A stretch of DNA of 8,783 bases from a bacterium. Its GTDB lineage: Bacteria; JAMCPX01. The notes below the pieces were generated by a model. That model was not told the DNA's origin and searched no databases. It was given only the letters and a program-made list of their open reading frames with translations. The translations under genes were made by a program, and so were the position numbers. This document shows, one piece after another, positions 1 to 4,999 of the stretch. The stretch lies in NCBI GenBank assembly GCA_021789095.1, contig JAJYJX010000105.1, positions 1 through 8,783 on the forward strand, in the 5' to 3' direction. Position 1 is the first letter of the stretch; each line of letters opens with the position of its first letter.

Positions 1-1373
1 TCCAGAAAGATGATCTTTATGTCCTGGCCGCCTACATCGCATATTACATCTACATCCTTGTAGAAATGGAGTGCTGATTTTGTATGCGCCACGGTCTCGA
101 CGATTGCGACGTCCGCTCCTATTGCCTCTTTTATGATGTCCTTTGCATAGCCTGTTGTGCCTGCCCCCAGTATTTCCAGAGCAGGTGCGGAATGCCTGCC
201 TGTCACGGCATCGTTCAAGCTCAGAAGGATCTGCTTCGTATCATCGATCGGATTGCCTCGCGAGAGTATATATGCCCGTTCAATGACCTCACCGTCTTCT
301 GTAATAAGCACGCCTTTTGTCGATGTGGAGCCGCCGTCTATGCCTAGGTATGCCTTAATAACTTTATCCCTGTTAAACTGAAGTGTCGGCTTATAGGCTT
401 GAACTGAACTTTTCAGAAAGGGCACCGACCCTTCCAGTTTGCCGGAAGGCCCCTGTATGTCCGGATTAGTCGTGTTTCTTATTTTGTGAAGATGCTGTTC
501 AAGTATGTCTGCACCACGAAATTTGCTTTCCTGTTCGTCCGATATGCCATAGAATATGCTTCCTATTGCGGCAAAAAACTGTGCATTGTCCGGCACCCTT
601 ATATGCGACGCAGGATCGCCTTTTACTTTTATACCCCTCTGTTCCCAGAGCAAGGGTATATTGTGCTGCCATGCCTGTTTCAGTGCGGGGATAAAGGTAT
701 TAGGACCGCCGAGCAGCAGAACATCCGGGGTCAGCGTGTTGCCGCGTGTAAGCACGCTCAGGTTCTGCTGGACTATCGCCTCAAACAATGAAGCCATGAG
801 TTCTTCCGGTGGCACTCCCTGTTTCTGGAGGCTGTTTATGTCCATTTCTGCAAATACGCCGCATCTGCCTGCAACAGTGTGTATCTTTATGCCCGTGTAT
901 TCGAGCTCCGGCAGGTATTGCTGCGTAACGTTCAGTTTTCCCGAAATCCTGTCTATGACTGTACCCGTGCCGCCTGCACACTTGTCATTCATGGTTGTAA
1001 ATCTGCGCTTCCTGCCTGTTGCAGGTTCAATAGACCATATGATGGCCTTTGCGTCCTGTCCGCCTATTTCTATTACGCTGTTTATATCCGGATAAAGTTT
1101 TTCCACTACAAGGGTTATAGCATTGACCTCCTGCACATACCTGCATCCCAGTACGGATGCGATGGTGCCGCCGCCGCTGCCTGTGACAAAAAGGCTCAGA
1201 TCTGCGTTGCCGAACCTCTCCTGAATCTCCGAGAGGAACTCTATGACCGTTTCTATCTGCCTTGCCTCGTGCCTCTGGTAAGAGCTGTAGAGTATGTTTT
1301 GCGCATCGTCCATAACCACACCTTTAACTGTGGTGGAACCTACATCAAGTCCTGTGAAATACCTGGATGCCAT
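1..1373 (-). CDS. Two-module BadF/HgdC-type acyl-CoA dehydratase activase, 3' part cut by window edge
   Basis: The 457 visible residues contain two successive ASKHA (Hsp70/actin-fold) ATPase modules of the BadF/BadG/BcrA/BcrD family. Module 1 spans about 5-280: phosphate-binding loop GLDVGSTTVKGVV at 8-20, TGSGGG 64-69, IGGQDAK 103-109. C132 (in NDKCAGGTG) and C171 (in AGRCGVFAE) match the two cysteines that in HgdC ligate the [4Fe-4S] cluster bridging the dimer. Module 2 starts near 341 with a second loop, GIDGGSTSTKGV (344-355), then GAGTTGYA 403-410 and DVGGQDIK 446-453 just before the edge. HgdC is about 260 residues with one module. Two modules point to the long fused activase class, usually well over 1000 residues with added dehydratase-related domains, which would lie beyond the window. 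Known family role: ATP-driven injection of one electron at low potential into a 2-hydroxyacyl-CoA dehydratase or benzoyl-CoA-reductase-like partner. The substrate here is unknown. The ATG lies one base after the tetR stop, so the gene is probably translated from the tetR mRNA. Cytoplasmic; no membrane segment seen. Confidence 0.9.
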   Translation of the reverse strand, partial: MASRYFTGLDVGSTTVKGVVMDDAQNILYSSYQRHEARQIETVIEFLSEIQERFGNADLSLFVTGSGGGTIASVLGCRYVQEVNAITLVVEKLYPDINSVIEIGGQDAKAIIWSIEPATGRKRRFTTMNDKCAGGTGTVIDRISGKLNVTQQYLPELEYTGIKIHTVAGRCGVFAEMDINSLQKQGVPPEELMASLFEAIVQQNLSVLTRGNTLTPDVLLLGGPNTFIPALKQAWQHNIPLLWEQRGIKVKGDPASHIRVPDNAQFFAAIGSIFYGISDEQESKFRGADILEQHLHKIRNTTNPDIQGPSGKLEGSVPFLKSSVQAYKPTLQFNRDKVIKAYLGIDGGSTSTKGVLITEDGEVIERAYILSRGNPIDDTKQILLSLNDAVTGRHSAPALEILGAGTTGYAKDIIKEAIGADVAIVETVAHTKSALHFYKDVDVICDVGGQDIKIIFL

Positions 1374-1374
1374 T

Positions 1375-1989
1375 TTATGCGCCTCTGCTTCCCTGTTTTC
1401 CGCCGTTCACTGCAAGTCCGTACAGGTTGAATTCGATCAGATCTTTTATGAGCCTGTCGAGCTGCGGCATGTTGTTTTCGGGACGTGTAATCCTGTCCGT
1501 GATTTCCTTTACACCCCCCATTATGAACACGGAGATGAGATTCAGATCCCCGTTCTTTACAATGTTCATGTATACTCCCAATGTCAGTGCGCTTTCGATA
1601 AGTGCTGCAATCTTATTATAGAATCCCTCTATCTTCTGATCTGTTATGCTGTCCAGACCAGGGGCGTGCCTGAACAGTATCCTTGTTAGCTCTGAGTCAT
1701 CCATTGCAAGCTGGAACACCCTTTTCAGATTGTCTGCAATCTGTTCAATGGGGGGCTTACTACCGGGAGCTATAACAATCCTTTCTACCGAATCATTGAT
1801 TCTTTTTAGCAGCTGGTCAAACAGTGCATCAAAGATCCCGCGTTTGTCCTTAAAGTAAAGGTAGAACGTACCGCGTGCTATACCTGCACGTTTTATTATA
1901 TCGTTTATACTTGTCTCGTGGTATCCTTTTATGGCAAACATTTCTTTTGCAGCGCTTAAAATTAATAGTTTTCTTTCCTCAGGAAGCAT
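1375..1989 (-). CDS. TetR/AcrR-family transcriptional repressor
   Basis: A 204-residue protein, normal length for the family. The N-terminal DNA-binding domain is clear: residues about 5-50 with helix-turn-helix at about 26-46 (TSINDIIKRAGIARGTFYLY) followed by FKDKRGIFDAL, the classic TetR_N pattern. The C-terminal part (about 70-195) is the all-helical ligand-binding and dimerisation region. The stretch ILFRHAPGLD (about 104-113) resembles TetR proteins linked to acyl-CoA and fatty-acid metabolism, which is suggestive only. The ATG at 1989 is preceded by GGGG about 7 nt upstream, a usable ribosome binding site. It is the first gene of a two-gene operon: the stop codon is one base before the activase ATG. 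A perfect 24-bp palindrome sits over its promoter about 115 bp upstream, so autorepression together with control of the activase is the likely regulation. The inducer is not evident; an acyl-CoA related to the activase pathway is an inference from context. Confidence 0.93.
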   Translation of the reverse strand: MLPEERKLLILSAAKEMFAIKGYHETSINDIIKRAGIARGTFYLYFKDKRGIFDALFDQLLKRINDSVERIVIAPGSKPPIEQIADNLKRVFQLAMDDSELTRILFRHAPGLDSITDQKIEGFYNKIAALIESALTLGVYMNIVKNGDLNLISVFIMGGVKEITDRITRPENNMPQLDRLIKDLIEFNLYGLAVNGGKQGSRGA

Positions 1990-2105
1990 TATTTACCCCG
2001 TTACAAAGTTCCGTCATTTATGACGAAGATAAAATGATACATTCTAAATTCCATTTAAAAGGGACGCGGCTTTAAACTGCAGCCTTTCTAACTGGGCTGA
2101 CCCCC

Positions 2106-2129
2106 ATTAGACTGACATGTCAGTCTAAT
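2106..2129. promoter_or_regulatory. Perfect 24-bp palindromic operator, likely site of the TetR repressor
   Basis: The left half ATTAGACTGACA is followed directly by its exact reverse complement TGTCAGTCTAAT, with no spacer and no mismatch. The core GACTGACATGTCAGTC resembles known TetR-family operators (two half sites with dyad symmetry). It overlaps the putative -10 element and start site of the tetR-activase promoter on the minus strand, where a bound dimer would block RNA polymerase. The assignment to this TetR is by position and architecture; binding itself is inferred. Confidence 0.8.
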
Positions 2130-2154
2130 TATCCATCAAAGGCTTTCCTGTCAA
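2128..2154 (-). promoter_or_regulatory. Sigma-70-type promoter of the tetR-activase operon
   Basis: On the minus strand a perfect -35 TTGACA occupies 2154-2149 and a -10 GATAAT (5 of 6) occupies 2133-2128. The spacer is 15 bp, shorter than the ideal 17. The stretch upstream of the -35 (2158-2190) is a run of A/T tracts like an UP element, which could offset the short spacer. Transcription would start near 2121, inside the palindromic operator, and give a leader of about 130 nt before the tetR ATG. Confidence 0.65.
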
Positions 2155-2200
2155 GAGATTTTTAATATTTTTTTAATTACCTTATTTTTTAGGGTGTTAA

Positions 2201-2469: not shown

Positions 2470-4317
2470 ATGATTATGCTATCAGCAGATAAAATCAGAA
2501 ACATAGGAATAATAGCGCATATAGACCATGGGAAAACGACACTGGTAGATGCCATGCTCAAGCAGTCGGGTATTTTCCGCATTAATGAGCAGGTCATGGA
2601 AAGGGTGATGGACTCGTTCGAGCTCGAGCGCGAGCGGGGCATCACGATACTCGCAAAGAACACATCGATCCGGTACAACGACTATAAGATTAACATCGTC
2701 GATACACCGGGACACGCTGATTTCAGCGGCGAGGTTGAAAGGGCGCTTTCAATGGTTGACGGCGTACTTCTGCTCGTAGACGCAATAGACGGTCCGATGC
2801 CGCAGACAAGGTTTGTTCTGAGGAAGGCGCTCGAAAACAAGCTGAAGGCCATTGTTGTTATAAATAAGATTGACAGGCCTGAGGCAAGACCCCAAGATGT
2901 ACTTGATGCTGTATCGGAACTGTTCCTGGATCTTGCTGTAGACCCTTCACAGCTTGATTTCCCTGTCATATACACGTCTGCAAGAAACGGCACTGCGGCA
3001 CTTTCAATGGACGGGCCTTTAAACAGCCTGCAGCCGCTGTTTGATGCCATAGTGAGCCATATACCGTACCCGGAAACAGACACGCATGAAAAATTCGAGA
3101 TGATGATAAGCCAGCTTGCCTACGACCAATACATGGGACCAATGGTCATCGGCAAGGTAAAGAGCGGCAGGCTGCATCCGGGTGAAGAGGTATATATCTA
3201 TCCCAAGGGCGGGCAGGCCACTTTAAAAAAAGTACTAAAGCTGTTCACATTCGAAGGGCTTCAGAGACAGGAGATAGATGAGACTGCGCCCGGAGACATT
3301 ATAGCCATAGCAGGCATTGACACGCAGGACATAGGGACAATTGTTTCTCAAAAAGAGGACATACTGTATGTTGACGGACTAAAAATCGACGAGCCAACGA
3401 TATTCGTGCAGATGCTTGTTAACAACAGCCCCTTCTCCGGCAGGGAGGGTAAATTCTTCACATCAAGACATTTGAGTGAAAGGCTGAAGCGGGAGGTAAA
3501 ATCGAACCTGTCATTAAAGGTAACACCTACCGACAATCCCGATGTCTTTGATGTCGCAGGCAGGGGCGAGCTCCACCTGTCAATTTTGTTTGAAACCATG
3601 CGAAGAGAAGGGTATGAATTCCAGGTGGGTATGCCAAAGGCCATATTGAAACATGCCGATAACAAGATCATGGAGCCCATAGAGGAGCTTACCATTGAAG
3701 TCATTGACGAATACTTTGGCAGGGTTATGGAAAAAATAGGCCCGAGGAAGGGAGAACTTGTCCATTCTTTCAAAACGCCGTCAGGACTTACCCGACTGAT
3801 CTTCTCGATACCCTCACGCGGCATTATAGGGCTGCGTTCGGAACTTTTGCTCGAAACAAAGGGAAATGTTGTTATGCATCACCAGTTCACAAAGTATGAC
3901 GTGTACAGGGGGGATCTGCCGACACGCAAAAAAGGCGTCCAGATCGCCAAGGAACCCGCTGTTGCCGTTGCCTATGCCCTGTGGTTTCTGCAGGAAAGAG
4001 GTCCTTTGTTTCTATCGCCCGGAGACAGAGTTTACGGAGGCATGATCATCGGCATACACAACAAGGAGACAGACCTTGTTGTAAATCCCGGGAAAAAAAA
4101 GCACCTTTCAAACGTAAGGGCAGCAGGCTCTGATGACGCCATAAAGCTTGTTCCTCCGCTGAAGCTTACCCTGGAGTACGGCCTTGGATTCATAGAGGAG
4201 GACGAGCTGCTGGAGATCACACCTGCATCGATACGGTTGAGGAAAAAGGTCCTCGATCATATAGAACGCAAAAGGGCTGAGAGGCACGCTGAACAGGAGA
4301 TAGACGGTGACGAATAA
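2470..4317 (+). CDS. typA: Ribosome-associated translational GTPase TypA/BipA
   Basis: A 615-residue protein, close to the usual length (E. coli BipA is 607). The GTPase domain carries all main motifs: G1 AHIDHGKTT (16-24), G2 region RERGITI (54-60), G3 DTPGH (78-82) and G4 NKID (132-135). EF-G-like domains follow, and then the TypA-specific C-terminal region near 480-595, recognisable from QERGPLFLSPGDRVYGG, DLVVNPGKKKHLSNVRA and DDELLEITPASIRLRKKVL. It binds 70S ribosomes under stress, and in known bacteria it supports ribosome assembly and growth at low temperature. The first ATG is 2470, with an in-frame ATG at 2476. Neither has a recognisable Shine-Dalgarno sequence, so the exact start is uncertain by two codons. 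It is the first gene of a three-gene operon; its last 11 bases overlap the response regulator, whose ribosome binding site lies inside typA. Confidence 0.97.
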   Translation: MIMLSADKIRNIGIIAHIDHGKTTLVDAMLKQSGIFRINEQVMERVMDSFELERERGITILAKNTSIRYNDYKINIVDTPGHADFSGEVERALSMVDGVLLLVDAIDGPMPQTRFVLRKALENKLKAIVVINKIDRPEARPQDVLDAVSELFLDLAVDPSQLDFPVIYTSARNGTAALSMDGPLNSLQPLFDAIVSHIPYPETDTHEKFEMMISQLAYDQYMGPMVIGKVKSGRLHPGEEVYIYPKGGQATLKKVLKLFTFEGLQRQEIDETAPGDIIAIAGIDTQDIGTIVSQKEDILYVDGLKIDEPTIFVQMLVNNSPFSGREGKFFTSRHLSERLKREVKSNLSLKVTPTDNPDVFDVAGRGELHLSILFETMRREGYEFQVGMPKAILKHADNKIMEPIEELTIEVIDEYFGRVMEKIGPRKGELVHSFKTPSGLTRLIFSIPSRGIIGLRSELLLETKGNVVMHHQFTKYDVYRGDLPTRKKGVQIAKEPAVAVAYALWFLQERGPLFLSPGDRVYGGMIIGIHNKETDLVVNPGKKKHLSNVRAAGSDDAIKLVPPLKLTLEYGLGFIEEDELLEITPASIRLRKKVLDHIERKRAERHAEQEIDGDE

Positions 4318-4999
4318 ACAGGTCCTTATAATAGAAGATGATAAAGACATATCAAACCTCATATCGCACTATCTCGGCAGGGAAGGTTTTATACCCATCA
4401 TAGCGTCGGACGGCGAAGAAGGACTATGGCAACTAAAGACAAAAACACCTGCATTGATAGTCCTTGATCTCATGCTTCCGCGCAAAAACGGTTACGAGGT
4501 CATGCAGCAGTTAAAAGTGCAGGAAGCTACAGCGCATATACCGGTCATAATACTCACTGCAAAAGCCGACGAGGTGGATAAGGTACTGGGCCTTGAACTC
4601 GGCGCTGACGATTACATGACAAAACCCTTTAGCCCGAGGGAACTTATTGCAAGGATAAAGGCGGTTATGCGCCGTATGGATCACGAAGCTGCAGCAGAAA
4701 AATCAAAGAAGATCGTCTATGAAAAGCTGGAAATAGATGATATGAAACATGAGGTAAGGTATGACAATAAGATGATGGTCCTGACGTCGAAAGAGTACAG
4801 GCTGCTGAAGTATTTCCTGGAACACAGGGGCATAGTGCTGTCCAGGGATGCCCTGCTGCAGAACATCTGGGGATATAATTATTTCGGTACAACAAGGACT
4901 GTGGACGTACATGTATCAAGATTGAGGAAAAAGATCCCGCAGTTAAACAAGAGTATTCAAAATATTAAAGATATAGGATATAAGTTTACAGATGAATAA
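4307..4999 (+). CDS. PhoB/OmpR-family two-component response regulator
   Basis: 230 residues, the standard length. The receiver domain (about 5-118) has the acidic pair D11/D12, phosphoacceptor D54 in VLDLMLP, the switch T84 and K106 in the TKPF motif, so it should be phosphorylatable. The winged-helix DNA-binding domain (about 134-228) ends with TRTVDVHVSRLRKKI and DIGYKF, typical of PhoB-like activators. The start is GTG at 4307, overlapping the end of typA by 11 bp. AGGAGA at 4295-4300, with a 6-nt spacer, supports this start, and it keeps the usual short N-terminus before the first strand (KQVLIIEDD). Its partner kinase follows with an 8-bp overlap. PhoB itself controls phosphate scavenging, but no pst or phoU gene is visible, so the regulon is not established. 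Confidence 0.95.
   Translation: MTNKQVLIIEDDKDISNLISHYLGREGFIPIIASDGEEGLWQLKTKTPALIVLDLMLPRKNGYEVMQQLKVQEATAHIPVIILTAKADEVDKVLGLELGADDYMTKPFSPRELIARIKAVMRRMDHEAAAEKSKKIVYEKLEIDDMKHEVRYDNKMMVLTSKEYRLLKYFLEHRGIVLSRDALLQNIWGYNYFGTTRTVDVHVSRLRKKIPQLNKSIQNIKDIGYKFTDE

Follow-up and report, generated by a model that had tools for sequence, protein, structure and literature searches.

Bacillus FadR (YsiA; PDB 1vi0, 3whb) is a regulator of the TetR family with a palindromic operator and lipid-type targets. The letters of its operator are of the TGAATGA type and differ from those of the operator that we describe here. PsrA, FabR and FadP, TetR regulators of fatty-acid genes that likewise have palindromic sites, form groups that have been studied in Proteobacteria only (PMC5343134). 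As for lipid-modifying enzymes, the glycerol ester reductase Ger of Desulfatibacillum and Thermotoga and the plasmalogen synthase PlsA/PlsR of Clostridium perfringens share a DUF2229 domain and a reductase part, and Ger is described with two BcrAD_BadFG activation domains (PMC13274423, PMC11150832); at present, Ger and PlsA are indistinguishable by sequence (PMC13274423). A TetR gene directly upstream of pls has already been reported for Enterococcus faecalis, where a TetR/AcrR-like gene precedes the plasmalogen synthase gene (EF1326/EF1327; PMC9702350).

Here we analyse a bacterial contig of 8,783 nt, referred to in its entirety as the window, in which a palindrome lies upstream of a tetR gene and a truncated gene of the PlsA/Ger type. 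The palindrome probably marks an unreported control circuit of membrane-lipid or acyl-CoA metabolism.

Results

On the plus strand, positions 2106–2129 read ATTAGACTGACATGTCAGTCTAAT, which equals its reverse complement at every position and lacks a spacer, exactly as stated in a preliminary description of this DNA, and is the sole perfect dyad with 12-bp arms listed for the window. Perfect 24-bp palindromes are expected by chance at 5e-4 per window (8783/4^12) and at about 0.13 per 2.15-Mb genome, and so the palindrome (2106–2129, no strand assigned), taken alone, is suggestive at most of a TetR operator.

The palindrome coincides with a promoter on the minus strand that reads into tetR (1375–1989) and the truncated gene downstream (3–1373). 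The -35 element TTGACA (2149–2154, minus strand) is invariant in six aligned sequences and is preceded by an A/T-rich stretch (2155–2189, minus strand), a possible UP element. The preliminary description had placed the dyad over the -10 and expected start of this promoter; we see the same arrangement and refine the -10 hexamer to GATAAT (2133–2128, minus strand), which matches the consensus at five of six positions, overlaps the operator by 2 bp and, as the likely -10, has a short spacer of 15 bp. The alternative, TAATTA (2126–2131, minus strand), has a 17-bp spacer and matches the consensus at two of six positions. Either choice overlaps the palindrome, and transcription is expected to start around 2120–2122, about 7 nt past the -10 and within the palindrome. 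In the relatives, the -10 place is occupied by TATAAT, GATAAT, TATATT or GTTAAT. A standard promoter scan called no promoter here since it allows spacers of 16–18 bp, a range that excludes the 15-bp spacer of GATAAT. Upstream of the operators as a set, TTGACA-like hexamers are found approximately four times more often than in shuffles (35 vs 8.9 expected), mostly 19–36 bp upstream, and in Bipolaricaulota the order is TTGACA-N17-TATACT-operator.

Comparison of relatives backs the earlier proposal that the neighbouring TetR has the dyad as its operator, over the -10 and start of its own promoter. All six same-family orthologues of tetR (71–77% identity) carry the core TAGACTGACATGTCAGTCTA 10–20 bp before tetR, with TTGACA upstream in 5/5 of those for which upstream sequence is present. 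A TetR of 41% identity is also preceded by TAGACTGACATGTCAGTCTA, and with it included the core lies 10–40 bp before the start. Exactly one site is found in each of the seven same-family genomes that have tetR (our own genome included), and none in the two that lack it. Both of the latter are less than 85% complete and one of them, G005, has a DUF2229 gene, so that the absence there may reflect a gap in the assembly.

The preliminary description had also suggested that the site might recur in the genome near acyl-CoA genes and so define a regulon. This fails for the genome itself: scanning it with the 24-mer at up to three mismatches returned a single site and no further regulon members, and the 16-bp core gave few three-mismatch matches, fewer than the reversed control. 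With one site only, there is no regulon in this genome. The suggestion does hold elsewhere: the site recurs in other genomes and near acyl-CoA genes, and the regulon that we propose, while missing from its own genome, exists in others such as RBG_13_61_14.

The gene downstream begins 1 nt past the tetR stop, and the contig (G000:C37, 8783 bases) ends within it, leaving a 5′ part of about 456 aa (3–1373, minus strand); a search of the own genome for the rest of the gene found no other piece. The 456-aa fragment comprises one full BcrAD_BadFG/CoA-activase domain and part of a second, and is matched by the TIGR00241 acyl-CoA dehydratase activase and benzoyl-CoA reductase models. These matches fit a reading in which the operator and repressor are correctly identified and the target is the activase of a 2-hydroxyacyl-CoA dehydratase or aryl-CoA reductase, acting in fermentation or aromatic catabolism. 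We regard this as unlikely, though the strongest of the alternatives. Full-length relatives of 1112–1161 aa carry two activation domains (PF01869 twice) and DUF2229 and have another ORF, of the reductase type, behind them, in line with the description of PlsA/Ger (PMC13274423); Pfam matched no dehydratase subunits among the neighbours examined; and the genes that share the operator are lipid genes. The second ORF (~485 aa) can be aligned, at 22–25%, with the C-terminal region of single-chain giants, including the Desulfatibacillum alkenivorans C45 protein. DUF2229 and the HgdB-like reductase are thus present in the relatives; the window, in which the gene is truncated, contains neither.

This make-up matches the description of PlsA and, with two activation domains, that of Ger (PMC13274423, PMC11150832). 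The preliminary description, which called the gene an activase, overlooked that by its architecture it belongs to the PlsA/Ger family of ester-to-ether reductases. Since the PlsA/Ger-type proteins are only ~24–35% identical to two D. alkenivorans giants, one of them the validated Ger, the ether-lipid role is assigned at the level of the family. On balance, and with some reserve, we favour an ether-lipid enzyme gene as the predicted target. Another giant gene of the own genome (G000:C156, L145; frame of 984 aa) also encodes activation domains and DUF2229, and lacks the operator.

Profile and structure-family matches identify the product of tetR (1375–1989, minus strand; 204 aa) as a FadR-like TetR-family regulator. 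The TetR_N domain (PF00440) scores 63.3 bits against a cut-off of 24, and the nearest solved relatives are the Bacillus FadR proteins, matched at full length over both the DNA-binding and the ligand domains. The score against the NCBIfam FadR equivalog is 59.1 bits, below the cut-off of 200, and we therefore call the protein FadR-like, not FadR. The helix-turn-helix stretch ARGTFYLYF is almost invariant across operator-linked TetRs. On a tree, these fall into three groups altogether, and the window TetR sits in a clade with 98/91 support that contains 21 operator-linked TetRs and best hits and no control paralogues. The operator has remained almost letter-identical while the protein has diverged to ~25–40% identity.

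By analogy with these relatives, we lean somewhat towards an acyl-CoA-type ligand. The TetR could instead be an activator or dual regulator, or respond to oxygen or stress, much as an oxygen-sensing role has been proposed for the E. faecalis TetR/AcrR-like regulator upstream of pls (PMC9702350). We consider this quite improbable: by its place over the -10 and start, the operator has the position of a repressor site, the nearest solved relatives are regulators of fatty-acid metabolism, and related operator-linked TetRs adjoin beta-oxidation genes. A TetR_N domain and a conserved palindrome on the gene's own promoter are features expected of an autoregulatory TetR repressor.

We searched 84,980 genomes for exact matches to the 18-bp core AGACTGACATGTCAGTCT and found 65 sites, some of them chance matches, where ~4 are expected (257 Gb/4^18). 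Sites in a Paracoccus (L049) and a Klebsiella-named MAG (L073) are probably of the chance kind. Because an exact 18-mer was required, variant sites such as GACACGTC of D. alkenivorans are undercounted. In 241 genomes searched with a 20-mer at up to two mismatches, there were 15 sites versus none for the reversed control. Moving outwards from the 18-mer query, symmetry holds at the first three flanking positions in 52, 40 and then 38 of 64 cases, and declines further out towards a background of ~16–20. Three such positions on each side extend the footprint to 24 bp, the same extent as the palindrome of the window, with the consensus A-Y-T-AGACTGACATGTCAGTCT-A-R-T.

A TetR gene lies within 150 bp of 28 of the 65 sites. 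The gene order follows one of two recurrent patterns: operator-tetR-target, to which the window belongs, or tetR-operator-target, seen in Nitrospirae, Acidobacteriota, Methylomirabilota and Planctomycetes. Ger/PlsA-like coding sequence is found within 1.8 kb of 20/65 sites, and in all 20 it is transcribed away from the site; in RBG_13_61_14 (G047), the operator is found both at tetR and, unlinked to it, at a Ger-like gene of 1363 aa. Other targets are HAD plus fatty acyl-CoA reductase genes (deltaproteobacteria, Myxococcales), an MMPL exporter with patatin neighbours (Bipolaricaulota) and, mostly in Desulfobacterales, beta-oxidation-type genes for acyl-CoA dehydrogenase, MaoC, SCP2, AMP-ligase, thiolase, 3-hydroxyacyl-CoA dehydrogenase and enoyl-CoA hydratase. 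The operator or its variants also occur near genes for DctP-type solute-binding proteins at two loci (L045, L134), the first of which also has genes of the acyl-CoA dehydrogenase type alongside; this hints that an acyl substrate may be taken up.

D. alkenivorans has seven sites at up to three mismatches. Among its ~50 TetR matches, that with the greatest similarity to the window TetR sits at two of these sites, beside SCP2-AMP-ligase-thiolase genes: operator variants with the cores GACACGTC and GACACCTC (4074–4093 and 4962–4981 of locus L131) flank the beta-oxidation-type cluster beside this TetR. Elsewhere in the same genome (L129, 2926–7965), a different TetR gene directly precedes a 1458-aa Ger-type giant, and the operator is absent there.

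In several genomes the operator lies far from the best-matching TetR: in five that carry it at unlinked genes, no operator was found in the stretch examined around the best TetR match, and in a sixth (G061) the surroundings of this match are cut by a contig end. Such cases could mean that the palindrome belongs to another regulator and that the neighbouring TetR is incidental. We hold this to be very improbable given how often TetR genes adjoin the sites, given that the closest of the many D. alkenivorans TetR matches is the one at the operator, and given that operator-linked TetRs group together on the tree. The pairing of this operator with this type of TetR is almost certainly right, as judged from the comparisons above. 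Since the same letters precede related TetRs and ether-lipid-like genes in many distant phyla, the 24-letter palindrome is very probably a real docking site for a repressor.

An element that the preliminary description had overlooked separates the operator from tetR: a MITE-like dispersed repeat of ~105 bp (1992–2096, minus strand) that begins ~9 bp from the palindrome. It is short, multi-copy and without an ORF, with 12 matches in the own genome (itself included), five in G003 and two in G001; the copies end in inverted-repeat-like ACCCCGTTAGAAAG / CTTTCTAACGGGGT, and the window copy is degenerate at one end. The repeat is absent at this spot in the relatives, the insertion between operator and tetR being found only in the own genome, where the distance from operator to tetR ATG is 117 bp compared to ~10–20 bp in the same family. 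The insertion seems to have disrupted the original ribosome-binding region, and the GGGG at the end of the repeat now precedes the ATG. Folding of the leader is no better than that of shuffles (z -0.87), and an Rfam search of the window found no RNA family. Between tetR and typA (~2293–2392) lies another stretch (GTCATTCTGAGGCGTAGCCGAAGAATCT ... AGATTCTTCACGGAG), which resembles a degenerate dispersed repeat. Despite the nearby start of the MITE-like element, we give hardly any weight to the palindrome being a chance occurrence, a terminator or the end of a mobile element: these are ruled out by its conservation across phyla, it is present in relatives that lack the repeat, and it has no T-run and was not called as a terminator.

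Discussion

We propose that dimers of the TetR bind the 24-bp site and, by covering the -10 and start of the TTGACA promoter, would block RNA polymerase, so that tetR and the PlsA/Ger-type gene 1 nt downstream would be repressed jointly, i.e. by autorepression. Occlusion of the polymerase is highly likely to be the mode of repression, as judged from promoter geometry. A fatty-acyl-CoA or similar lipid would then release the repressor, a ligand suggested by the relatives and the gene context. The de-repressed PlsA/Ger-type reductase, with its two activation domains, DUF2229 and HgdB-like part, would probably convert ester-linked membrane lipids into vinyl- or alkyl-ether lipids. Taken as a whole, a lipid-released, FadR-like TetR that autorepresses an operon including the PlsA/Ger-type gene is a reading that we consider likely. 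What we observe is the sequence and its conservation, the geometry of the promoter, the adjoining genes, the unlinked sites in other genomes and the family membership of the proteins; from these we infer binding, repression, ligand and enzyme product.

The same operator–TetR pair would govern PlsA/Ger-type and other acyl-lipid genes across many phyla. More tentatively, and with slightly less than even confidence, we suggest that a single TetR/operator code with a near-invariant 24-bp site in about eight phyla constitutes an unreported regulon, one that couples acyl-CoA status to ether lipids in Acidobacteriota, Nitrospirota, Methylomirabilota, Planctomycetota and deltaproteobacteria (the PlsA/Ger-type side), and elsewhere to beta-oxidation or acyl reduction. 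Our literature search found no report of the operator: the 16-mer matched no paper in the collection searched, the half-site returned unrelated papers only, among the matches listed, and no paper of that collection joined 'glycerol ester reductase' and 'transcriptional regulator'. The operator touches on the question of how bacteria choose to make ether lipids, including those used as palaeoclimate proxies (brGDGTs), and by predicting TetR-controlled genes in uncultured lineages it offers a testable handle.

How does the locus compare with the described systems? Bacillus FadR is the best solved match to the window TetR and resembles it in having a palindromic operator and lipid-type targets; the window TetR differs in scoring far under the NCBIfam cut-off and in being linked mainly to a target of the PlsA/Ger type. 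PsrA, FabR and FadP are alike in that they, too, are TetR proteins with palindromic sites at fatty-acid genes. Compared with Ger and PlsA, the putative reductase of the window's family is split into two ORFs of ~1120 and ~485 aa. The E. faecalis locus resembles ours in gene arrangement, and differs in being reported for facultative anaerobes, with the role proposed for its regulator being the sensing of O2 (PMC9702350). TetR–pls adjacency is thus already known from Enterococcus; what seems to be new is the operator.
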